Shown here: piece after piece, positions 23,541 to 41,834 of the stretch
Layout: every line of letters starts with the position of its first letter
Position numbering within the stretch: the stretch's first letter is position 1
From: Candidatus Bathyarchaeota archaeon
GTDB taxonomy: Archaea; Thermoproteota; Bathyarchaeia; Bathyarchaeales; Bathycorpusculaceae
Assembly: GCA_022865455.1 (NCBI GenBank)
Contig: JALHSY010000046.1
Coordinates: 1-41,834, forward strand
Length of the DNA: 41,834 nucleotides
Direction: 5' to 3'
Translations under genes and position numbers: made by a program
The notes under the pieces: model-generated
What the model was told of the DNA's origin: nothing
Seen by the model: only the letters and a program-made list of their open reading frames with translations
The model's database searches: none

Positions 23541-25161
23541 AACGTCTGTAGAGATTCCAAAGTGTGCCATTGCTTTTGGCGCCGTTGCGCCGCCTCAGGG
23601 CGACATAGTAGATCTTCAAGTCCATCTGGGCTGCACGAAGGAAGTAAGCAGTTTCGAGGTTCTGTTGCAGAATTGGGGTAAGAAGTACAGTCCCGGCGGA
23701 GCGACGCCCATCCTTGTTGGAGTGGACGGGCACATCGACATTGGCAGAGGCGTGTTTGTTCCGCAGTTGATTACTTGCCGTGTTGAAAGCGTCAAGTGCG
23801 AATCAACTCCAACCGAAAACTACATTCGTGTTAGTGGTCGTTGTTGGGGAGAGAAGCTTTTCCGCAGAACCGTGACCAAAACTTACGAGAACAAAAAAGG
23901 CGAAGAGATCATCAAGGACTTGCTCGACTATTACGTTGGATTGAGCCACGTTCGCTATTTTGATGGCACGGGCGTTGAGCTGGTGGAAGATACTGATACA
24001 ACCTTTACAAAGCTGGCCTATGAAAACACGCCTGTCTGGGACATAATCAAATACGTTGCAGAGTCATCTGACTTGGCTGGCGTTATCGGCTACGATTTTC
24101 GTGTAGCGTTTGATGGTAAGTTCGAGTTTTTTGCAAAGAACAGTAAAGCTTCAGAAGTTAGCATCTCCGAGAAAATCGAGGCGAGCGAGTATCGCAAGGA
24201 CATCCATCGCATAAGAAACAAGATAACCAGTCAAGGAGCAAATGAAAAACAATATCCATCCGATGCGAATGATGACGGCTTAACGGAGACCACAACCGAC
24301 TGGACGGGCAGTGACCCGGTGATTCTGAGCAGCACCCACGTTATTGAGGATGGACAAAAAAAGTACACGGACTCGTATAGCATCTCCAACGACGCGTACG
24401 GTACGGTGCTAGAAAGATGGCTGCATAGAACGTTTTCGGCAATAAAAATGCGGGGACCTGACGGCTATAAACAAGTCGTGTTCTGGCATCACTGGACCGG
24501 GACTCAGGATGCGTTAGCCTCAGCGAAAGTTAGGCTCTATTCAGGGGCTAGTTACTTCGAGACTGACATTCTACCATTGGTTAGCTCTAAGGGAGCTTGG
24601 GTTAAAGTAACACTGCAGACGCAGACACCCGACTGGACCGTAAACGGCACGCCCAACTGGGACGCCATAGATGCCATCCGCTTCATAATCGCGTATCCGG
24701 CGATAGGCATAGCATACATTCGCATAGATCATCTGCGTTTCTGTGACTGCCGCTACTCCGCAGTGGCAGAGAATGAAGGAAGCCAAACTGCTTATGGCTT
24801 GCGTGAGCTCGTCGAGGTTGACGAGGAGCTTTACAGCGATAATGAGTGCCTGTTAAGGGCTGAAGCACTGCTTGCCTACTTGGAGGACCCGGCTGAATAC
24901 CTGACGGCAAGGAGCACGGTTATCGATTATGGTAGCACACCTATCTGGCAAGCCGACAAAATCCATGTCACACTGCCTAACGAGAACGTAGATGCTGATT
25001 TCCGTATAGAAAGCGTTGAGTATCATGTGGACGCTAAAACGCAGACGCTTGAAGTGACGCTGGAGCTTGGCAAGGTTCCTCCGATGCTTGCGGATTACCT
25101 GTATGCTCTCTGTAGCAAGACGGACCATTTGAGCCGTTACAAGGTTGCGAGGTTGATATAA
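23533..25161 (+). CDS. Tail tip/baseplate protein (Gp37/late-control-like)
   Basis: I place the start at the TTG at 23533 (LNETSVEIPKCAIAFGAVAP), giving 542 residues; the frame is open further up but overlaps the tape-measure gene without family-like sequence. The chain resembles phage Gp37-like and gpD-like hub proteins: SSFEVLLQNWGKKYSPGGAT, then RVSGRCWGEKLFRRTV and VWDIIKYVAESSDLAGVIGY. A beta-sandwich insertion follows at about 290-430 with an aromatic-rich FWHHWTG, then the C-terminal domain ending VTLELGKVPPMLADYLYAL. It should form the distal tail hub. Confidence 0.66.
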   Translation: MNETSVEIPKCAIAFGAVAPPQGDIVDLQVHLGCTKEVSSFEVLLQNWGKKYSPGGATPILVGVDGHIDIGRGVFVPQLITCRVESVKCESTPTENYIRVSGRCWGEKLFRRTVTKTYENKKGEEIIKDLLDYYVGLSHVRYFDGTGVELVEDTDTTFTKLAYENTPVWDIIKYVAESSDLAGVIGYDFRVAFDGKFEFFAKNSKASEVSISEKIEASEYRKDIHRIRNKITSQGANEKQYPSDANDDGLTETTTDWTGSDPVILSSTHVIEDGQKKYTDSYSISNDAYGTVLERWLHRTFSAIKMRGPDGYKQVVFWHHWTGTQDALASAKVRLYSGASYFETDILPLVSSKGAWVKVTLQTQTPDWTVNGTPNWDAIDAIRFIIAYPAIGIAYIRIDHLRFCDCRYSAVAENEGSQTAYGLRELVEVDEELYSDNECLLRAEALLAYLEDPAEYLTARSTVIDYGSTPIWQADKIHVTLPNENVDADFRIESVEYHVDAKTQTLEVTLELGKVPPMLADYLYALCSKTDHLSRYKVARLI

Positions 25162-25562
25162 TGAAGAATAAGCAGGTTTTGAAGCAGCAGCTTAGGGGTT
25201 TGGACCCTGGTGATTTGGTTTGCGTGGAATGGAGCGATGCATCGGTGGGTAAGAGCATGCATGCTGGCGCTGGCGGCATTGAAGTTCCTGTTTCCAGTTG
25301 GGGTATTTTTATTAGCTTGCTTGGTAAAAACCCTGAGCATATTGTTTTGGCGCAGAATAATTTTCGCTATGCAGACGGGCTTTATGATATTGACTATACT
25401 GCTATTCCTGCTCCTTGGGCGTGCAAGGTGTCTGTGCTGATTAAGGGGCATGTTGATTCGGAGACTGCTAGGCATTTGCTTGAAAGTTTTCTTTTGCATG
25501 GTAGAGCTCGTATTAGTAAGAGTTGTGGGCACCAGCAGAGGTTGAGGGTTCATGAAGCATGA
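25161..25562 (+). CDS. Conserved hypothetical viral protein
   Basis: The 133-residue product has an SH3-like start (LRGLDPGDLVCVEWSDASVG), then VSSWGIFISLLGKNPEHIVL and FRYADGLYDIDYTAIPAPWA. I recall similar proteins in archaeal proviruses but no function. It follows the tail hub by a one-base overlap and precedes a small membrane protein. It may bind nucleic acid or belong to the tail tip. Confidence 0.6.
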   Translation: MKNKQVLKQQLRGLDPGDLVCVEWSDASVGKSMHAGAGGIEVPVSSWGIFISLLGKNPEHIVLAQNNFRYADGLYDIDYTAIPAPWACKVSVLIKGHVDSETARHLLESFLLHGRARISKSCGHQQRLRVHEA

Positions 25563-25797
25563 TTGGGTTAGGCGTGCCTTGACTAGACACCTTATACATA
25601 AGGGACGCGTGCACATTGTTGAGCCTGATGAGAAGCTTGTTTTGGGCGTAAAATTCGCCATAGCCATGACACTGTGTCTCTCAGCTCTCGAGATTGCCCA
25701 CATTGCTTTTCTGGGCAGCTGGAACAGCGAGATATTTGCGGGTATTACCGGCTTAATTGGCACGGTTTCAGGTATTCTAATTTCGCAAAAAAGCTAG
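25552..25797 (+). CDS. Small membrane protein with two helices (FAGI motif)
   Basis: The 81-residue product has a basic N-terminus, then membrane helices near 30-50 (LGVKFAIAMTLCLSALEIAH) and 61-78 (EIFAGITGLIGTVSGILI) and ends QKS. The hairpin topology is holin-like and the place between tail and terminase genes is reasonable for that. The second helix is close to that of the protein encoded at 33001. It overlaps the previous gene by 11 bases. Confidence 0.6.
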   Translation: MKHDWVRRALTRHLIHKGRVHIVEPDEKLVLGVKFAIAMTLCLSALEIAHIAFLGSWNSEIFAGITGLIGTVSGILISQKS

Positions 25798-25838
25798 GGG
25801 GGTAGGGGCTGCGAAACATTAGGGTCAGACCATTTTTT

Positions 25839-26141
25839 GTGGTGAGAAGGGCGCGGGAAAGGCTTCAAAGGGACATGCAGAAGACCCGGTTGAAGCTTCT
25901 GCGGGATTTGGAAGATATGTTTAACATGGCTAAGGGCTACGCGCAGAATAAGGAAATAACCAAGACAGATGAACCTGTTGTTTCTCCAAAGCAAAAGCAG
26001 ATTTGGATTCGCATTATGGCTTACACTGGACAAGTCATGAACAGCATAAGCAAAAGTTTCGATGAAGCCCAAGTCACGAAGGATCTTGAACGTTTGGAGA
26101 AGTTGATTAATGAAGCAATGGCAAAAGAAGAAAGTAGATGA
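25839..26141 (+). CDS. Putative terminase small subunit
   Basis: The product of about 100 residues starts at GTG (25839 or 25842). It is helical and highly charged (RRARERLQRDMQKTRLKLLR; EAQVTKDLERLEKLINEAMA) and has no clear HTH. Its 3' end overlaps the large terminase gene by 32 bases, the best evidence for a TerS role. An upstream ATT start in frame cannot be excluded. Confidence 0.5.
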   Translation: MVRRARERLQRDMQKTRLKLLRDLEDMFNMAKGYAQNKEITKTDEPVVSPKQKQIWIRIMAYTGQVMNSISKSFDEAQVTKDLERLEKLINEAMAKEESR

Positions 26142-27570
26142 GTTAAAGGAAAAAGTTGAAGGTTTGATCCAAGCTAAAGCCAGAAGGATTCCCGAGAGTT
26201 TTGAGGAGTTTTGCGAGAAATGGCTTGGGCTTAAGCTTACGGATTATCAACGTGCAGGCGCAGAGCTGATCAAAAGAAAAGATAGTGTAGCTTTAAGGTG
26301 GTCTCGGCAAAGCGGCAAGACGCACATGGTCAGTGCGTGGCTGCTGCATTACGCCTTAAGGCATCCTGGGAGCCAAATTGCAATTGTGGGTCCTAGTTGG
26401 CGTCAAACAAAAATTCCAATTCGCAAGATTAACGGATTCCTTCCGAAGCTTCCGAAAGGCTTGTATAAAAAACCGCAGGCAACAATGGTTACCACGAGTA
26501 ACCATAGCCTTATCCAGGCTTTTCCTTGCAATCCTGAAACCATCAGGGGGTTTACGCTTAATGTGCTGTATGCTGACGAATTTAACTACGTTCCTCTGGA
26601 TCAAGAGCTTTATGACGCCATAGTGTTCACGCTTTCCACGACCAATGGCAAATTTGTTTGTAGTAGCACTCCTGGCGCCACGGATAGCATGTTTTGGAAG
26701 TTTTTCAATCGCCCTCAATATCGCCATTTTGCGAAGAGTCATGTGACGTGGCAGCAAGCCTTAGAGCCTAATGGTCCGTTGAAAAAGCGGAAAGTTGAGC
26801 AGCTGAAGGAAGAGTATTGTGATGATCGGTTCAGATGGCAGAGGGAGATGGAAGCCGAGTGGGCTGAGGATGAAGCGGTTTGGCTGCCACTTAGTTTGAT
26901 TACGAAATGTCAGGATGCGAGCCTAGAGTTGTGGGACTCTGAAACTGTTCATCAAGGCAGCTTTTTTGGGGGTGTAGATTTTGGTAAGGAGCAAGATTAT
27001 AGCGCTTTTGCAGTGGCTGAAAAGGTTGGTAGTAAATCCTTGTTGCGTCATCTTAAGGTGTGGCCATTGGAGACGAAGTATGCAGCGGTTATCGGTTATG
27101 TTAAGACGTTTGCGGATCGTTGGCAAAGCTTCGAGAAGATCCGTTGCGATATTACAGGAGTTGGTAACTATATTGTTGAGGACATGATTAATGGCGGAAT
27201 CGAAAATGTGGAGGGTGTTAGCTTTTCTCATCCTCGAAAACAAGAGATGGCTAGCCTGCTTAAACAACGTATGCTGAACAGCGCATTTGCTTACCCATAC
27301 GCTGAAGTTAATGTGTCGCCCTCGAAAAAGCTGAATTTCTCGACGGAGCTCAACACGGAGAGATTCGAACTTAAAAAGGATGGTACTTACCGATTTTTCC
27401 ATCCTCAGAACCAGCATGATGATGTTTTTTGGGCTACTGCCTTGGCGCTTTATGCGACTGTTGAGATGCAGCCAGAGCCGTTTTTGGCTGTTATTCCTCG
27501 TAGGGCTAATAAGTTGCACCGGGTCCGTAAGGGATTGGCGAAACGTAAGGTTATGGGTGATGGCCGCTAA
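26110..27570 (+). CDS. terL: Terminase large subunit (packaging ATPase-nuclease)
   Basis: The 486-residue motor protein has the ATPase parts Walker A SRQSGKT (65-71), Walker B LYADE (153-157) and coupling motif SSTPG (185-189). The RNase-H-like nuclease has Asp290 in GGVDFGKEQDYSAF, Asp347 in RCDITGVG and Asp437/Asp438 in HDDVFWATALA. It cuts and pumps viral DNA into the head through the portal. All catalytic positions are intact. The terminase genes lie at the far right of the structural block, opposite the common terminase-first order. Confidence 0.92.
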   Translation: MKQWQKKKVDELKEKVEGLIQAKARRIPESFEEFCEKWLGLKLTDYQRAGAELIKRKDSVALRWSRQSGKTHMVSAWLLHYALRHPGSQIAIVGPSWRQTKIPIRKINGFLPKLPKGLYKKPQATMVTTSNHSLIQAFPCNPETIRGFTLNVLYADEFNYVPLDQELYDAIVFTLSTTNGKFVCSSTPGATDSMFWKFFNRPQYRHFAKSHVTWQQALEPNGPLKKRKVEQLKEEYCDDRFRWQREMEAEWAEDEAVWLPLSLITKCQDASLELWDSETVHQGSFFGGVDFGKEQDYSAFAVAEKVGSKSLLRHLKVWPLETKYAAVIGYVKTFADRWQSFEKIRCDITGVGNYIVEDMINGGIENVEGVSFSHPRKQEMASLLKQRMLNSAFAYPYAEVNVSPSKKLNFSTELNTERFELKKDGTYRFFHPQNQHDDVFWATALALYATVEMQPEPFLAVIPRRANKLHRVRKGLAKRKVMGDGR

Positions 27571-27772
27571 AAACTTGTCTTACCCTAGCTTTCACCTACC
27601 CCTACCCCCTACTCTTTTTTCGTCTGGCAGTGATTCTGACATGACAGAACAATCATGTACCGCACAGCTTCCAATCAATCAAGTTCTGGTGGGCGACTGC
27701 AGAACGCGCGCGGCTTATGTAAAAATGTCGATTGAACGATTAGAATCAACGCCTGAACCAGACAAAGAGTGA
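27560..27772 (+). CDS. Small hypothetical protein between terL and the ABC-GNAT gene
   Basis: From the ATG at 27560, which overlaps the terL end by 11 bases, the frame gives 70 residues. An ATG at 27641 would give a 43-residue form (MTEQSCTAQLPINQVLVGDC) after a pyrimidine-rich stretch. The short form looks more protein-like; the long form's first half is Pro/Leu/Ser rich (FHLPLPPTLF). No family is recognised. Confidence 0.4.
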   Translation: MAAKNLSYPSFHLPLPPTLFSSGSDSDMTEQSCTAQLPINQVLVGDCRTRAAYVKMSIERLESTPEPDKE

Positions 27773-27779
27773 TTTCAAC

Positions 27780-29252
27780 TTGAGAAGACACAGAGAGTTT
27801 TTCCGCATCCGCCAGCTTCGCAGGGTCTACGACAGAAGCCAGAACAGGTTCACCTTCAACATTTCGTATGAGACAGCTGCCAAGACCACGCCGAGGAGTA
27901 TAGCGGTTGCTGAGGCGTTCGGGCTTGGGTTAGACGAAGAGAAACGCTTCGTGATTTATGATAACGTGGAGTTGCAGGTGAAGCCTGACGACGTCGTCAT
28001 GGTCACGGGCGACAGTGGATCTGGGAAGAGCGTGTTACTACGAGCATTACGGGAGGATCTCGGCTCCGAAGCTGTGGACATGACAGAACTCGAGATTTCT
28101 AGCACTAAACCGTTAATCGAGACTGTAGGAGAGACGGTTGAAGAGGGCATTGAGACTCTAAGTCGCGTTGGCTTGAATGACGCATTTCTCTTCCTCAGGT
28201 CTTATGACCAGTTGAGTGACGGGCAGAAGTACCGTTACCGCATAGCCAAAATGGTTGAGAGTGGCAAACAGTGGTGGGTCGGCGATGAATTCTGTGCAAC
28301 GCTGGACCGCGATACGGCGAAGATTGTGGCGTTTAACGTGCAGAAGCTTGCAAGAACCTTGGGAAAGGCTGTTGTTGTGGCCACGACTCACACGGATTTG
28401 TTTGAGGATTTGAAGCCCAGCGTACACATCCACAAGAGGTTCGGCAAGGAAATCTGTGTAGTGTACTATACAAACGAGCCTGCAAGGGAATGCAGCCTTG
28501 TCAGAGAGATGCGTGTTGAAGAGGGTACAATGCAGGATTGGAACCAGCTCGCCGGCTTTCATTATCGTAGTCACAGGGTAGTTGCGCCTCGCAAAATCTT
28601 CTGTCTTAAGCGGGGGACCGAGGTGTGCGGAGTGATCGTTTATTGTTATCCGCCTCCCAGTGCCTACGGTCGAAGAATGGTTCTGCCCCGAATGAGCATG
28701 AAGGAATTGAATGAGAAGTTGAGCATTATCAACCGTGTGGTTGTGCATCCGAAGTATCGGAGTGTCGGTTTGGGTGCCAGGCTTATTCGTGAGTCGTTGG
28801 GTTTGGCTGGGACAGAGTTTGTGGAGATGATTGCGGTGATGGCTAAGTACAATCCTTTTGCAGAGAAGGCGGGGATGAAGAAGGTTACTGAGCAGGAGCC
28901 TCAGAGGGAGATTTTACGGGCTTCCAAGGTCCTTGAACAAGTCGGGTTTAATGTTCAGCTGCTTGGAAGCGGGAACTATGTATTTCAGAAACTTCAAGCA
29001 CTTAATGCCGACGGCCTGGAAAGGGTTAGGGAGGCCTTCGTCAAAGCTGACCATCCGCGCTTCTCAAAGTTTTTCAGCTCAGGGCTTCCATTCGGGCATA
29101 TGGGGGATTACGAGAGAAAGGTGAATGCTGCAACCTTGGAGCAGCTTGCAAGCCTTATCAAGATCTGCGGTTTTCTGATGCAGACGAAGGCTTACCTTTT
29201 CTGGAAATCCAAAAATCTTTGGAACAAATCTGGAATCTCTATAAATCTCTGA
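27780..29252 (+). CDS. ABC-type ATPase fused to GNAT acetyltransferase-like domain (COG2401-type)
   Basis: The 490-residue product starts at TTG. The ABC ATPase has Walker A GDSGSGKS (77-84), signature LSDGQKYRYRIA (145-156), Walker B WWVGDE (165-170) and switch His204 in ATTHTDL. A GNAT-like domain follows at about 250-400, with the acetyl-CoA loop region VVVHPKYRSVGLGARLI (320-336). There are no membrane segments, so it is not a transporter. Fusions of this sort occur next to terminase genes in mobile elements, and their reaction is unknown to me. The C-terminal 90 residues are extra. Confidence 0.78.
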   Translation: MRRHREFFRIRQLRRVYDRSQNRFTFNISYETAAKTTPRSIAVAEAFGLGLDEEKRFVIYDNVELQVKPDDVVMVTGDSGSGKSVLLRALREDLGSEAVDMTELEISSTKPLIETVGETVEEGIETLSRVGLNDAFLFLRSYDQLSDGQKYRYRIAKMVESGKQWWVGDEFCATLDRDTAKIVAFNVQKLARTLGKAVVVATTHTDLFEDLKPSVHIHKRFGKEICVVYYTNEPARECSLVREMRVEEGTMQDWNQLAGFHYRSHRVVAPRKIFCLKRGTEVCGVIVYCYPPPSAYGRRMVLPRMSMKELNEKLSIINRVVVHPKYRSVGLGARLIRESLGLAGTEFVEMIAVMAKYNPFAEKAGMKKVTEQEPQREILRASKVLEQVGFNVQLLGSGNYVFQKLQALNADGLERVREAFVKADHPRFSKFFSSGLPFGHMGDYERKVNAATLEQLASLIKICGFLMQTKAYLFWKSKNLWNKSGISINL

Positions 29253-29259
29253 AGTAAAG

Positions 29260-29329
29260 GTGCTGTAAAGTCTTCGGTGAAAACGAGCCCACTTGAGTCC
29301 TGTAAAAAATCGGTGAAAAATCGGTTGAT
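29260..29329 (+). repeat. 70-bp inverted repeat, left copy, flanking the restriction-modification cassette
   Basis: Its reverse complement recurs at 32864-32933 with two differences in 70 bases by eye. Read on the minus strand, each copy contains two versions of a motif of the form ACCGAnnnnTTnACAGnAC, at 29295-29314 and 29260-29278. The copy starts 7 bases after the ABC-GNAT stop and ends 24 bases before the methylase start, so it also occupies the likely promoter of the cassette. Confidence 0.93.
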
Positions 29330-29353
29330 GATTCTCTGACGTGAGAGCCCTAT

Positions 29354-31459
29354 GTGGAGGTGAGAATAACGTTAAATTCCGAAGAGGAACAAATACCTGC
29401 AAAGGTAACCGAGATGCCACCTAAGAAGAAGAGAAAACAAGAGGCACTCACAGTCTCAAGGCTCATACACGAAGTCTTAGTAAGCCAACTGAGCATCCCA
29501 CTACACCAAATCGTGAATGACACAACGTTTGCAGAGTACACTGGGTCAAAACGTCCTGACCTCTTAATTTCTGAATTTGAGTACGATCGAGTGAAGAAAA
29601 ACGATGCCCAATTCATCAATAATCTTGTTGCTTACGCGGAAGCCAAAGACGACTGTATTGTGAAAGGTGTAGATTGGTTAGATGCGATTCAGCAAGGTCT
29701 GACGAAAGCTCCGAAGCTCAAGCTTCCTTATTTCATCGTAACGAATGGTAAGACCAGCATATTTTACAATGCCAAGACTCAGAATGAAATAAAACTCAAT
29801 GGTAATCCGATTAGAGAATTTCAGACAATAGATATTCTTAGGTTAATAAAGAATCGGCTTTCAAAAGACCCTGATTTAGATAACATAATCACTAACGTAG
29901 ATTCAATCTCGGTCATCTCAGAAGCGATATTCAACAAGAAACTATGGGAACTCGCAAAGATTTACAGGAACATAAATTTCGAAAACAATGTTCAAAAAAT
30001 AGACTTCACGGTCGGCTTCATTTCACTGGAGTATTTTGAGGAAAGAGAAACGATAAAGGGAGTGAAAGACGCAACCAAGATTTACTGGTCAGATTGCTCA
30101 AACCATGCAGCGAATTATCCCTCTGAGAAGATTGTGGCAAGTCTTTCTCGGTATATAGAAAGACTGGAACAGGAATCGCAATTTGGCGAGTTTGTTGATT
30201 TAATGGAAAAGGTTCACATTGCGATAGCTGGAAAAGGAACAGTTAAACCATTAGTCAGCCATGACGAAGTGAAACAGGTCTATGAATTGATAGATTCGAT
30301 GAAACCTCTTCATGGTTGTGGCTTCGACCTCTTTGGGGCTGTCTATGAAATGTTCGCTAGTAGCAAGGAAAAGAAGGATTTTGGCGAATACTTTACTCGT
30401 AGACATTATGCACATATTCTTACAAAACTACTCCTTCGCAACGAACAGTATTTTGATGAAAACAGGAAATTTAGGATACTTGACCCAGCTTGCGGTACAG
30501 GTGGATTCTTGACAGAAGGTTTCAAAGTACTGCGAAATGCTTATGCTAAAACTAACACGCTGACTGCAAAAGCTGAAAAATTTCTAGAAGAAGATTGTTT
30601 CTATGGAATTGATGTAAGAAGAGAGAATATTTCCAGAACGAAACTTAACATGTTCTTGGTTGGAGATGGACACACAAATATGGAGGATATTAATACTTTA
30701 ACGAAGAAATTCGGCAAAGGAGACCTATGGGATTATGTTATTACGAATCCACCAGTTGGTGCAGGAACAATCAGAGCTGAAACATCTGTAGTTTCATCCA
30801 ACCGTACCGAAGTTTGTTTCCTATACAAAGTTATTAGCCTGCTCAAAGATGGCAAAAAGGCTTGCATCTTACTCCCTGATGGTATTCTAGAAAATGCACA
30901 ATTTACAGAACTTAGAAAGGATTTGTTGGAGAAATGCGATATAGAAGCAATCGTGTCTCTTCCGAAATTTGCTTTCGCCCCCTACACAAAAGAGAAGATG
31001 TATGCTGTTTTCTTTACGAAAAAGAACGAGGCAATGACCAAAATCCAGAAACAACCGATATGGATGTACATCATAGATAATGACGGTTTGGCAAATTCCG
31101 ACAAACGCTTTCCCACGAAATTGCGGAATAATCAAAACGGATGGTTGCATGATGAGATTTCAGGATGGGTAAGTACTGATGGTGAAGAAATGGTTGGATT
31201 GCTTGAAGAAAGGTGGCTCAAGTCTGATGATTCTTCAACAGATGGCACACAATGGATTGGTGAGAAAGGACAAGCTGTCAAATTCAGAAAAGGAGGACTC
31301 ATATCAATAACGGCAATTACGGAAAAGAAGTCACAGTATTGCCTTCTGCCAGAATATTATCTACGCCCATTCAAGCCAAATTTCATAACTGCCGAAGAAT
31401 TATCTGAAGAGATCAGCTTGATTGAACAAGAAGTCAAAAACTTAGAGGCAATCGCATGA
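29354..31459 (+). CDS. Restriction-modification protein: HsdR-N-type nuclease fused to N6-adenine methylase
   Basis: The 701-residue product starts at GTG. Residues about 35-145 form a PD-(D/E)xK nuclease of the HsdR N-terminal type, with Asp69 in KRPDLL and Glu96/Lys98 in AYAEAKDD. Residues about 300-600 are an HsdM-like methylase with SAM motif I LDPACGTGGFL (376-386). Catalytic motif IV reads NPPV (465-468), where the family nearly always has an aromatic residue after NPP. A fused nuclease-methylase plus separate specificity subunit resembles BcgI-like type IIB systems. No translocase HsdR gene is visible. It overlaps the specificity gene by 4 bases. Confidence 0.8.
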   Translation: MEVRITLNSEEEQIPAKVTEMPPKKKRKQEALTVSRLIHEVLVSQLSIPLHQIVNDTTFAEYTGSKRPDLLISEFEYDRVKKNDAQFINNLVAYAEAKDDCIVKGVDWLDAIQQGLTKAPKLKLPYFIVTNGKTSIFYNAKTQNEIKLNGNPIREFQTIDILRLIKNRLSKDPDLDNIITNVDSISVISEAIFNKKLWELAKIYRNINFENNVQKIDFTVGFISLEYFEERETIKGVKDATKIYWSDCSNHAANYPSEKIVASLSRYIERLEQESQFGEFVDLMEKVHIAIAGKGTVKPLVSHDEVKQVYELIDSMKPLHGCGFDLFGAVYEMFASSKEKKDFGEYFTRRHYAHILTKLLLRNEQYFDENRKFRILDPACGTGGFLTEGFKVLRNAYAKTNTLTAKAEKFLEEDCFYGIDVRRENISRTKLNMFLVGDGHTNMEDINTLTKKFGKGDLWDYVITNPPVGAGTIRAETSVVSSNRTEVCFLYKVISLLKDGKKACILLPDGILENAQFTELRKDLLEKCDIEAIVSLPKFAFAPYTKEKMYAVFFTKKNEAMTKIQKQPIWMYIIDNDGLANSDKRFPTKLRNNQNGWLHDEISGWVSTDGEEMVGLLEERWLKSDDSSTDGTQWIGEKGQAVKFRKGGLISITAITEKKSQYCLLPEYYLRPFKPNFITAEELSEEISLIEQEVKNLEAIA

Positions 31460-32598
31460 CCGAGTTTCTAGATATTTTTAAGCCAATTCAAAAGGGCAAT
31501 TTCGGTCTTACTGATGAAGCCATTTATAGATCAATTCAGCATGGGGGTCAATTCATCCCTGTATATGGTGGAACAAAAGAACACACTACGACAGACCGAT
31601 TCGTTTCAGAATATGGAAAAACGAAGTATGATGGATCTATTACGATTTTCACTGGTGATGGGATAATCATCAGTCTTGATGGGAGTTCAGGATGCATGAC
31701 CTATGTAATGGCTAAAAGATTCGCTCTAAATCATCATGCGGGATTCTTTCAGTTAAAAGAGGATGCAAAACAAGTAATTGACCCAGAGTTCTTCAGTCTC
31801 TTCTTTGAGAAACAACTTCAGGAAGCGAGCGTTAGCGAAGGCTCTAAAACATTGACCCTAAGTATGATAGAATCTATGGATTTTGATATGCCTCCGTACA
31901 GTGTCCAAATGAAGGTCATGTCAAGAATAAGATCACTTTTGAAAGTGAAAGAGAGAGTCAATAACCTGATCTCAAGAATAAATTCCGTCAAAGAAAGAAT
32001 ACTTTTGGTTGAATATCGAGATTATCAAGCAAAAGATGTTTCTGTTGGAGATGTTCTGGATTGCATGAGTGGAAATTCTGGACTTACAGAAGAGTATCTA
32101 TATTCGCAAATTAAAGATAATTCCGAAAAAAAATATCATATTTTGACAGCTAGCACCGAGCATGAATTGAGTCAGTATGTGTCTAGATGCAAACATCCAA
32201 AGGATTCAAGCAAAATGATAACAGTCGTGGAAGGAAAACCTGTGATTCATGTCGTACGAATCGGAAAAGCAGGCTCTGTCACATATTTTGAAAACGGCGA
32301 TTATACCACCACTGAAAATGCCTATCTTCTTTATTTGAAGGATAATTTGAAATACGATCTTAGCCTCAAATGGCTAACGTATGCACTAGCACCAGAGTTT
32401 TCGGAGTATTCCAACATTGCGGAATATGGAACTTGGAATATGACTGGTTTTTTCGAGCGTGTAAAGATTGCTATTCCATCTTATGAAGAGCAACTCGAAC
32501 TTGTTGAGAAGTATGAACGCCTTGAACTACTACAAGCAAAGTTACAAAGCATTTTGACAAAGATTGACCAACTCTTCACTAAGCAAATAGTTATCTAG
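31456..32598 (+). CDS. hsdS: Specificity subunit (HsdS-like)
   Basis: The 380-residue product has two target-recognition halves, each closed by a helical coiled coil: QMKVMSRIRSLLKVKERVNN near residues 153-172, and EQLELVEKYERLELLQAKLQ near the end. The first half ends SMIESMDFDMPPYSVQMKVM and the second NMTGFFERVKIAIPSYEEQL, the repeated -PPY/IPSYEEQ- hallmark of HsdS. It would direct the fused nuclease-methylase to a bipartite DNA site. ATGA overlap with the upstream gene. Confidence 0.85.
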   Translation: MTEFLDIFKPIQKGNFGLTDEAIYRSIQHGGQFIPVYGGTKEHTTTDRFVSEYGKTKYDGSITIFTGDGIIISLDGSSGCMTYVMAKRFALNHHAGFFQLKEDAKQVIDPEFFSLFFEKQLQEASVSEGSKTLTLSMIESMDFDMPPYSVQMKVMSRIRSLLKVKERVNNLISRINSVKERILLVEYRDYQAKDVSVGDVLDCMSGNSGLTEEYLYSQIKDNSEKKYHILTASTEHELSQYVSRCKHPKDSSKMITVVEGKPVIHVVRIGKAGSVTYFENGDYTTTENAYLLYLKDNLKYDLSLKWLTYALAPEFSEYSNIAEYGTWNMTGFFERVKIAIPSYEEQLELVEKYERLELLQAKLQSILTKIDQLFTKQIVI

Positions 32599-32664
32599 AA
32601 CAATATTTCAGAGAATCCAAAGGCATATATTTCAAGAATGGGAACAGTATTTTGGTGGTTTTAG

Positions 32665-32853
32665 ATGGCGAAGTGCCCAGAGTGCAAGAAAGAAGTAGCC
32701 AAATCTTCTAAGAAATGGAAATATTCTGCGTTCACTGTCGAACTATTCGAATGTGCTTGTGGAACGAAGTTTAGAGAGTACTCAAGAAATAGCAAGCATA
32801 TCTTCACCTTAAAGTTCAAGAAAGGTAAAGACAAAAGTTTCGTTAGAGCTTGA
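32665..32853 (+). CDS. Small zinc-ribbon protein in the restriction cassette
   Basis: The 62-residue product opens with MAKCPECKKEVAKSSKKWKY and has a second knuckle ECACGTKFREYS, so four Cys for one zinc. It lies inside the inverted repeats, 10 bases before the right copy, and is the last gene of the cassette. It may be a DNA-binding partner or a controller; no evidence distinguishes these. Confidence 0.65.
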   Translation: MAKCPECKKEVAKSSKKWKYSAFTVELFECACGTKFREYSRNSKHIFTLKFKKGKDKSFVRA

Positions 32854-32863
32854 TTTTGTTCCT

Positions 32864-32933
32864 ATCAACCGATTTTTCACCGATTTTTTACAGGACTCAT
32901 GTGGGCTCGTTTTCACCGAAGACTTCACAGCAC
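32864..32933 (-). repeat. 70-bp inverted repeat, right copy
   Basis: It is the reverse complement of the left copy, 68 of 70 bases by eye. On the plus strand it shows the paired motif ACCGATTTTTTACAGGACTC (from 32879) and ACCGAAGACTTCACAGCAC (from 32915), 36 bases apart. The 3.67-kb segment between the outer ends holds exactly three rightward genes. Confidence 0.93.
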
Positions 32934-33000
32934 TCTCATTGTAAAAGCTTTTATGAGCTAGACATTAGTATCTACCTTTGAAATTAGGTGGCGTTCTAGT

Positions 33001-33264: not shown

Positions 33265-33310
33265 AAGCAAAATTAGTAATGCCTATTTGGTTAATAGTAT
33301 CCTCTTATCA

Positions 33311-33366
33311 ACCGAAAAGTAACACGTTCAAGAAAAAGACTCATCAATCGAAGAGGTAACAGAACC
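33311..33366 (+). repeat. Paired intergenic motif, copy set c
   Basis: ACCGAAAAGTAACACGTTC (from 33311) and ATCGAAGAGGTAACAGAACC (from 33347) lie 36 bases apart, the same spacing as in the right inverted repeat. The preceding bases TATCAACCGA are shared with that repeat as well. Confidence 0.6.
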
Positions 33367-34287: not shown

Positions 34288-34348
34288 GTTGATGAAAACA
34301 GAATCTGAATCCAAAGACTATGTCCCTTAAGTTAATAGTATCAGTCAT

Positions 34349-34399
34349 CCGACGAAAGTTCACATGAACCCCTAATCCGACGGAGACTACACAGAACCC
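34349..34399 (+). repeat. Paired intergenic motif, copy set d
   Basis: CCGACGAAAGTTCACATGAA-CCC (34349-34371) and CCGACGGAGACTACACAGAA-CCC (34377-34399) are tandem degenerate copies 28 bases apart, in the gap between two leftward genes. An imperfect hairpin (AGAAC with GTTCT plus CC with GG) overlaps the end of the second copy and the stop of the gene at 34404. Confidence 0.55.
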
Positions 34400-34956: not shown

Positions 34957-35007
34957 TAGCATTTAAGATTATCTACATAGCGTGGGCTAAGGGCTAGTTT
35001 CTAGGTT

Positions 35008-35060
35008 ACCAAACGAAAGTTTACAGGGAGAACAACCAAACAAAGAGTTTACAGAACCCC
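35008..35060 (+). repeat. Paired intergenic motif, copy set e
   Basis: ACCAAACGAAAGTTTACAGG (from 35008) and ACCAAACAAAGAGTTTACAG, then AACCCC (from 35035), are tandem copies 27 bases apart. They sit between divergent promoters of the genes at 34404-34913 and 35112-35540. Confidence 0.65.
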
Positions 35061-35553: not shown

Positions 35554-35613
35554 GCCGATGGTTAACAGACCTCTCAATAAAGCCTTGAAGTGCCGAAGAG
35601 TTAACAGAACCTC
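35554..35613 (+). repeat. Paired intergenic motif, copy set f
   Basis: GCCGATGGTTAACAGACCTC (from 35554) and GCCGAAGAGTTAACAGAACC, then TC (from 35592), lie 38 bases apart between convergent genes, which argues against a simple promoter role. Confidence 0.65.
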
Positions 35614-39752: not shown

Positions 39753-39776
39753 GCATACAAGACCTTGGGGAAAACT

Positions 39777-40643
39777 ATGAAAAGTTTGCTCATTCGTGTT
39801 GCGATAGATTCAGGAAATATGGGTTACATAGGACCGATTGATGAAAGAACAATGGAATACGTGTATATACCTATCCCTACTATTGAAACGGCTCTCACAA
39901 AGCGGACATACAACACTGAAAGAGTGTGGCCGCGAAACACAGTTTTTGAAGGCAAGGTGTTGGCTGACTTCATGCACACTGACAGGGCAGAGGTTCGTTT
40001 GGATTACGACTGGATAGAACAAGTGTGGATTGAACGAAAACTCCCTGCAAATAGTCTGAAAATTCACTTTGATCCTGAGTTTGATGGGAATACTTATGGA
40101 GATTCTTGGGGAAACAGAATACCGTCAGACCTCATTTTGCCTAGTGCTCTAGATGAGGAGATTCATTTGTTCTTTTATGCGGGACTTGCACCTTATCCCA
40201 AGTGCTTCGAAAAGCGATCACAGCACCAAATCATAAGCAGTCAAAAATATAGTATGAACGTCTATGTTATTGGCCACTTTGAAATCGAAGGAATCTACAG
40301 TATCAGAAAAGAGGGAGATCTATCAACCTTCGAGAAAGAATTGGGAACGAATGCGCATTTCATTGAGAAGGAACACCTCAAGGGACTTGAGAAGTATCCG
40401 ATCAAAGCTGAGCGAGAGCATTTTTCGAACTTGGTGATTGTCAAGGGTAAGAAGAAGGAATCAAGAGGGCTCTTATCCAAGGCAATACAATTAACCAAAT
40501 GGAGTGAAAGAAAAAGAGCTTACATCCCAACAGAACTTGGCGAGATAGTAGGACTAAAACCGAATAGAGGGATCAGGCAGACCCCACACCTGGATAGTAA
40601 CAGTACCAGCTCCCTTTTGGACGAGATTGACTCGACAATCTAG
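39777..40643 (+). CDS. Nmad3-like (nucleotide-modification-associated) protein
   Basis: I take the ATG at 39777 (MKSLLIRVAIDSGNMGYIGP), 288 residues, over one four codons up. Matches to the Nmad3 pattern as I know it are the N-terminal strand with D-S-G-N, YIPIPTIETALTKRTYNTER, KIHFDPEFDGNTYGDSW, HLFFYAGLAPYP and MNVYVIGHFEIEGIY. The late segment NLVIVKGKKKESRGLLSKAI also fits. This domain was proposed from genome context to work with modified bases; its reaction is unproven. The C-terminal 20 residues are Ser-rich. Confidence 0.55.
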   Translation: MKSLLIRVAIDSGNMGYIGPIDERTMEYVYIPIPTIETALTKRTYNTERVWPRNTVFEGKVLADFMHTDRAEVRLDYDWIEQVWIERKLPANSLKIHFDPEFDGNTYGDSWGNRIPSDLILPSALDEEIHLFFYAGLAPYPKCFEKRSQHQIISSQKYSMNVYVIGHFEIEGIYSIRKEGDLSTFEKELGTNAHFIEKEHLKGLEKYPIKAEREHFSNLVIVKGKKKESRGLLSKAIQLTKWSERKRAYIPTELGEIVGLKPNRGIRQTPHLDSNSTSSLLDEIDSTI

Positions 40644-41774: not shown

Positions 41775-41824
41775 GTGGCTCTGAAGTCTTCGGTTGATAC
41801 GAGCCCTTGTGAAAAATCGGTTGA
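41775..41824 (+). repeat. Third, shortened copy of the cassette-flanking repeat
   Basis: It has the same orientation as the left copy at 29260. The ends GAAGTCTTCGGT and GAAAAATCGGTTGA and the core ACGAGCCC are kept, while about 20 bases of the centre are replaced by TTGT. Its two motif units on the minus strand lie 27 bases apart, the shorter of the two spacings seen elsewhere. Confidence 0.75.
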
Positions 41825-41834
41825 CGACAGAACG

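Follow-up and report, generated by a model that had tools for sequence, protein, structure and literature searches.

The window analysed here is a stretch of 41,834 nucleotides (41.8 kb) that represents one entire contig (C181) of a Candidatus Bathyarchaeota archaeon genome of 2.0 Mb in 257 contigs, and our subject is a restriction-modification (RM) cassette found in it. A repeat search confirmed what had been noticed from the letters alone in a previous sequence-only reading, namely that this two-subunit cassette lies between inverted repeats of 70 bp: the arms, at 29260-29329 and 32864-32933, measure 70 nt each, are complementary at 68 of 70 positions (97%) and stand 3534 nt apart, and they are the sole inverted repeat of at least 20 nt in the window (blastn self-comparison, E<=1e-3). 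Enclosed by the arms, as the same reading had reported, are three co-directional genes; all lie on the + strand and all have open reading frames (ORFs). They encode a fused nuclease-N6-adenine methylase, or RM subunit, of 701 aa (29354-31459), a specificity (S) subunit of 380 aa (31456-32598) and a zinc-ribbon protein of 62 aa (32665-32853). The left arm starts 7 bases downstream of the stop of a viral gene (27780-29252, + strand), encoding an ABC-type ATPase with a GNAT domain, and ends just ahead of the methylase start, again as described before. This viral gene has 32 viral relatives, and the accessory genes downstream of it differ among the 7 loci listed. A domain search of the enclosed genes found no transposase or recombinase domain, in agreement with the sequence-only reading. 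The segment had also been described as richer in A+T than the viral genes; this holds for the genes on the left (GC about 39% in the RM segment versus 48-50%), but not for the right edge, since a GC of 37-39% continues well beyond the right repeat, so that composition delimits the left edge only.

The arms belong to a dispersed family of transposon ends. BLAST retrieved two diverged copies of the repeat, one on another contig of the window's genome and one in a relative, while a model built from sequence only (R1) found many more ends, in 14 of the 90 family genomes. Across the family, and in the window too, this model and a hidden Markov model (HMM) of the ends, built from 31 members, recover the same bipartite element. 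Strict-repeat exact-pattern scans of public genome and viral contigs gave no match, because the ends diverge fast; a profile search did detect them. Each end consists of GGTTCTGTnAAGTCTTCG followed by a box, a spacer, and TGTnAAAAnTCG followed by the same box, so that its halves form direct repeats. Within a unit this box hardly varies between the halves of an end or from one end to the other, but it differs between units (GGTTGAT, TCGGAT, TGGGAT, TTTGGT, GTGAAAA and others), as if, judging from these sequences, the variable box co-evolved with the DNA-binding part of the transposase. In the window, the left terminal inverted repeat (29259-29329, + strand) reads GGTGCTGTAAAGTCTTCGGTGAAAA-spacer-CTGTAAAAAATCGGTGAAAAATCGGTTGA, matches the HMM with E=3e-8 and follows the bipartite plan of 19 transposons flanked by target site duplications; the right one (32864-32934, - strand) is recognised both as a repeat and by the HMM, and the inner 35 nt of this repeat recur without change in the end of an autonomous transposon of a sister virus (L098).

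Elsewhere, ends of this family close complete transposons of 2.6-7 kb that carry cargo and an IS6/IS240-type transposase, often fused to a SWIM domain. In G071:C32, for instance, two ends 4.8 kb apart have GGATTTAG on either side and a transposase with SWIM and DDE_Tnp_IS240 domains within. Perfect target duplications of 8-9 bp were found for 19 units in total: 14 of 8 bp, three of 8-9 bp, one of 9 bp in the window's own genome and one on a viral contig (L190, CTTGCCTA). A chance 8-bp match occurs in 0.13% of random-anchor trials (0.0013 per unit, with a freedom of +-3 bp). The own-genome unit (G000:C206:20167-26145, equal to L004 12168-18146) is intact, measures about 6 kb and has the duplication GCCATCACC; its cargo comprises a GmrSD type IV restriction protein, a UPF0175 protein, a DUF3368/PIN-like protein and a 401-aa protein of unknown nature. 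All transposases inside pairs of terminal inverted repeats have the DDE_Tnp_IS240 domain. NCBIfam model NF033587 (cut-off 125 bits) assigns the own-genome transposase to the IS6 family with 132.9 bits, and a SWIM-form transposase (L056, 123.7 bits) and a partial copy (L067, 121.0 bits) fall just below the cut-off. With the L098 transposase as query, relatives were found in 29 of 256 class genomes. At L161 and L162 two units stand head to tail and share a common duplication (CTTTTGAA for L161, TTCTTGAG for L162), so that new copies repeatedly insert beside old ends.

Four loci of this family can be compared with the window unit. In L069, from a Thaumarchaeota metagenome-assembled genome, a gene set bounded by 101-nt inverted repeats with the same kind of double boxes comprises an RM subunit 75% identical to that of the window, a half-size S subunit of 187 aa, a TATA-binding protein, a zinc ribbon, a TIR-domain gene and a SWIM-IS6 transposase. 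The same cargo is therefore found together with a transposase, between such ends, in another archaeon. The 62-aa zinc-ribbon protein of the window aligns with a 59-aa ORF behind the same RM genes in L069 and with a 74-aa ORF in a related virus (L119), so it is a conserved passenger. The second locus is that of the sister virus L098 (IMGVR_UViG_3300049995_000112), with about 90% nucleotide identity to window positions 25096-29205; there a transposon end begins 239 bp beyond the homology, and within the unit lie the gene for a SWIM-IS6 transposase and one for an AlwI-nuclease/N6-methylase, the latter running off the contig. At the third, unit 1 of L162, a 3.4-kb segment with a sole RM gene of 975 aa lies between 39-nt repeats without transposase, has TTCTTGAG (8 bp) on both sides and abuts an autonomous unit carrying the same duplication. 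Among the signs in the sequences that RM-only cassettes do move, this is the cleanest, since a unit without transposase has an intact 8-bp duplication. Finally, on C206 of the window's own genome a related end has in its vicinity the C-terminal remnant of a transposase, with 80% identity to that of L098.

Two further observations concern these relatives. The TATA-binding protein gene aboard the L069 transposon lies at L069 5844-6401, and the genome to which the window belongs also encodes a TATA-binding protein, which identifies it as archaeal. In L032 (G150:C29), positions 1501-1980 hold a decayed methyltransferase fragment (81%, same methyltransferase) fused to an S fragment, and a family end is present at about 2000-2051.

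Concerning the RM proteins, the RM subunit matches the methylase domain PF02384 (E=2e-31) and, below threshold, HSDR_N_2, while the S subunit matches PF01420 (Methylase_S, E=1e-12). The nuclease call rests on residues P68, D69, E96 and K98, invariant in 17 relatives, together with weak HSDR_N matches; a fold search did not match the N-terminal 180 residues separately. The structure predicted for the 701-aa subunit has a mean predicted local distance difference test score (pLDDT) of 76. Between residues 185 and 674 it matches HsdM-type methylases (Z about 22), and residues 208-912 of the BsaXI RM protein are aligned with its residues 188-624 (Z 18.2, root-mean-square deviation 4.7, 381 residues aligned). 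Considered together with the PD...ExK residues and the S subunit encoded by a gene of its own, the predicted structure fits a BcgI/BsaXI-like enzyme. Such type IIB systems, which cleave DNA on either side of a bipartite site, likewise have a nuclease-methylase fusion in one chain, a separate specificity subunit and an N-terminal PD-(D/E)xK site (BsaXI, PMC11997821); the window subunit is, however, shorter (701 versus 916 aa), its cleavage activity is a prediction, and its methylase motif IV reads NPPV (30746-30757, residues 465-468) instead of the NPPY/F of an intact methylase. NPPY is present in each of the 24 relatives that cover the site, and NPPV needs two base changes, so that a sequencing error is unlikely; judged by this motif, activity of the window methylase is doubtful. 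The true start of the RM ORF may be the ATG at 29414. Its first 25 codons (29354-29428) look like the N-terminal part of a cargo gene from transposon L180 (52%), a gene unrelated to it; this suggests that the 5' end was spliced from elsewhere in a mosaic assembly. Assignment to the MADS defence system was considered and rejected, with the MAD2 methyltransferase model NF047738 scoring 83.8 bits, far under its curated cut-off of 720.

Taking these data together, we consider that the unit at 29259-32934 is probably a non-autonomous cargo transposon, similar to a mobile insertion cassette (MIC), of a diverse archaeal IS6/IS240-type family. On either side of its passenger genes stands an intact terminal inverted repeat of the family; a transposase, encoded inside the relatives, is absent. 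We infer that the missing enzyme would come from another, autonomous copy in the cell, possibly in the chromosome, in another provirus or in an incoming virus. This transposase would bind the two direct boxes of each end, join both ends to the target and leave an 8-bp duplication, and the two-subunit BcgI/BsaXI-like RM genes and the zinc-ribbon gene would thereby be moved as a single block. The unit would have landed in a tailed provirus, at an accessory-gene hotspot that follows the terminase/ATPase genes; a later rearrangement may have erased the target duplication. That a defence cassette had moved as a unit, through a transposase acting in trans, was one of the proposals of the sequence-only reading, and comparison with the family ends, L069 and L162 unit 1 supports it. 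The same reading had held that a repeat confined to this site, or relatives all carrying the genes without repeats, would speak against it; the repeats are instead dispersed, and in L069 RM genes do lie between such ends.

Several results weigh against this interpretation. There is no target duplication at the window unit, with GAAGTAAA on the left and CTCATTGT on the right. In the host assembly, which is 95% complete, an intact SWIM-type transposase was not found, the only finds being remnants and one intact transposase of the subgroup with GATACTG ends. Of the traces that the earlier reading proposed to look for, other cargo between family ends was found, but neither an empty site nor a duplication at the window unit, and no second copy was found either; viral relatives share the left flanking gene and nothing directly right of 32934, so that an empty site could not be shown. 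Movement in the manner of a MIC, as judged from duplication and empty site, is therefore supported in the analogue L162 unit 1 and not in the window unit itself. Moreover, a scan with the end HMM shows no element-type ends near most of the 27 RM relatives listed, a scan that also missed the ends of L069; this implies that RM genes spread by other routes too. It should also be considered that all the evidence is drawn from assemblies. The lack of a duplication and the NPPV methylase together indicate that the window copy may be rearranged and decaying, and the unit could be partly dead, both as a DNA element and as an RM system.

A rival explanation is that the unit is a dead remnant: the RM genes once belonged to an autonomous transposon whose transposase was lost by internal deletion and rearrangement after insertion, and the present form never moved and will not move. 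We lean somewhat against this explanation, although it has to be taken seriously. The missing duplication, the change of motif IV to NPPV, the first codons apparently spliced from another cargo gene and the several decayed ends close by would all be expected from it, but both ends are intact and 97% alike, the three ORFs are open, and an RM-only cassette with an intact duplication does exist in L162. It is unlikely, on the other hand, that solo ends of two separate insertions bracket by chance an RM operon that came with the virus. The two arms share no duplication, the region is rich in solo ends and viruses of this group have other accessory methylases at the same place, all of which would suit such an origin; however, the arms are 97% identical over 70 nt, while there is little likeness among the other ends of the window, and the same cargo, zinc ribbon included, lies between such ends in L069. 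An invertible cassette was another proposal of the sequence-only reading. Such a cassette, its expression switched by inversion between the repeats, or one inserted by a site-specific recombinase, is without support and very improbable: the geometry of the long inverted repeats would allow homologous inversion, but no recombinase gene was found inside, the repeats are transposon ends occurring with an IS6-type transposase, and they do not fold like attC sites.

The wider finding is a cargo-carrying family of archaeal transposons, in which the window unit has a MIC-like place. Besides the window, RM or N6 methylase genes are located within units L161b, L162 unit 1, L163, L164, L166, L173, L181, L184, L069 and L098, which gives at least 10 units with RM or related DNA methylase cargo. 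Pairwise identity of the methylases, compared for the units other than L161b, L162 unit 1 and L184, is mostly 22-33%, with the exceptions of L166/L181 (42%) and window/L069 (75%), and from this sequence divergence it is likely that such genes were captured several times independently. Among the 32 transposase loci of the 90 family genomes, 3 have an N6 methylase no more than 4 kb away, where about 0.12 would be expected (P about 2e-4, a rough Poisson estimate). A Panacea-like antitoxin is encoded in L173 (above the Pfam cut-off) and in L098 (sub-threshold score). We tentatively propose, with confidence almost evenly poised, that archaea and their viruses share a large and diversified family of IS6-type transposons, often SWIM-fused, and that much of the transport of RM genes, and of other genes for defence or toxin-antitoxin systems, depends on it as a main vehicle; its end boxes would change in concert with the transposase, and RM-only cassettes would exploit autonomous copies, moving in trans at their cost.

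The family shares with archaeal clades of IS6 (IS6/IS26) the DDE_Tnp_IS240/IS6 transposase, ends that start with GG and have G at position 7, and duplications of 8 bp. IS6 elements are, however, normally single-gene elements, whereas the units described here span 2.6-7 kb with several cargo genes, a SWIM zinc finger stands at the N-terminus of many of their transposases, and their ends measure 50-100 nt with paired direct boxes. A review of IS6 (2021) names a single member with a passenger gene, ISDsp3 (PMC7986276), and Harmer and Hall argued that archaeal members should be placed outside the IS6/IS26 family (PMC6807381). In a survey of 20 thaumarchaeal genomes, composite DNA transposons carrying passengers were among the classes undetected in archaea (PMC6563490). 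MICs and other non-autonomous transposons have in common with the window unit transposon ends around passengers and no transposase; the examples that we encountered are bacterial, such as the qnrS2 cassette (PMC5444012), while here the setting is archaeal and viral, the cargo is RM and the window copy has no duplication. Defence genes are transported also by Tn7-like transposons (PMC8649781), which differ in their transposase set and ends and use a targeted, multi-protein machinery. No description of cargo-carrying IS6-type transposons in archaea was found in the literature searched, with many subscription journals outside the search, and they appear to be undescribed so far.

The ways in which RM genes pass between archaea, viruses and distant lineages are largely unexplained. 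Here, both archaeal chromosomes and tailed viruses harbour a transposon family with exact duplications, whose cargo includes RM (at least 10 units), GmrSD, TIR-domain and toxin-antitoxin genes. Its defined ends and defined transposase make a system open to a transposition assay, and reading the content between family ends offers a simple route to more defence cargo.

Right of the unit, the HMM detected five further, diverged ends that the sequence-only reading had overlooked. Four are solo ends on the - strand, at 33305-33366 (box GATTGAT/GGTTGAT, E=6e-5), 34345-34398 (TCGGAT, E=2e-7), 35007-35058 (TTTGGT, a box shared with the L098 unit's outer end, E=7e-8) and 35554-35611 (GGCACTT/GGCGCTT, E=3e-5), and the fifth, on the + strand, lies at the edge of the contig, which stops there (41775-41834, GGTTGA, E=8e-10). 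A mechanical search found neither partners nor target duplications for these five. Co-oriented ends behind small genes prompted an attC/integron reading, which was dropped: the boxes are direct and not inverted, folding is no better than that of shuffled sequences, and end pairs occur with target duplications and a transposase. Directly adjoining the right repeat is the palindrome CTCATtgtAAAAGCTTTTatGAG (32935-32957), possibly a preferred target or a terminator; a related end in G043 (right flank of L008) is adjoined by a similar palindrome with altered stem bases (CGTCTTgc..AAGACG). Lastly, in the A+T-rich tract of the window, positions 39765-40643 encode a protein with an Nmad3 nucleotide-modification-associated domain.

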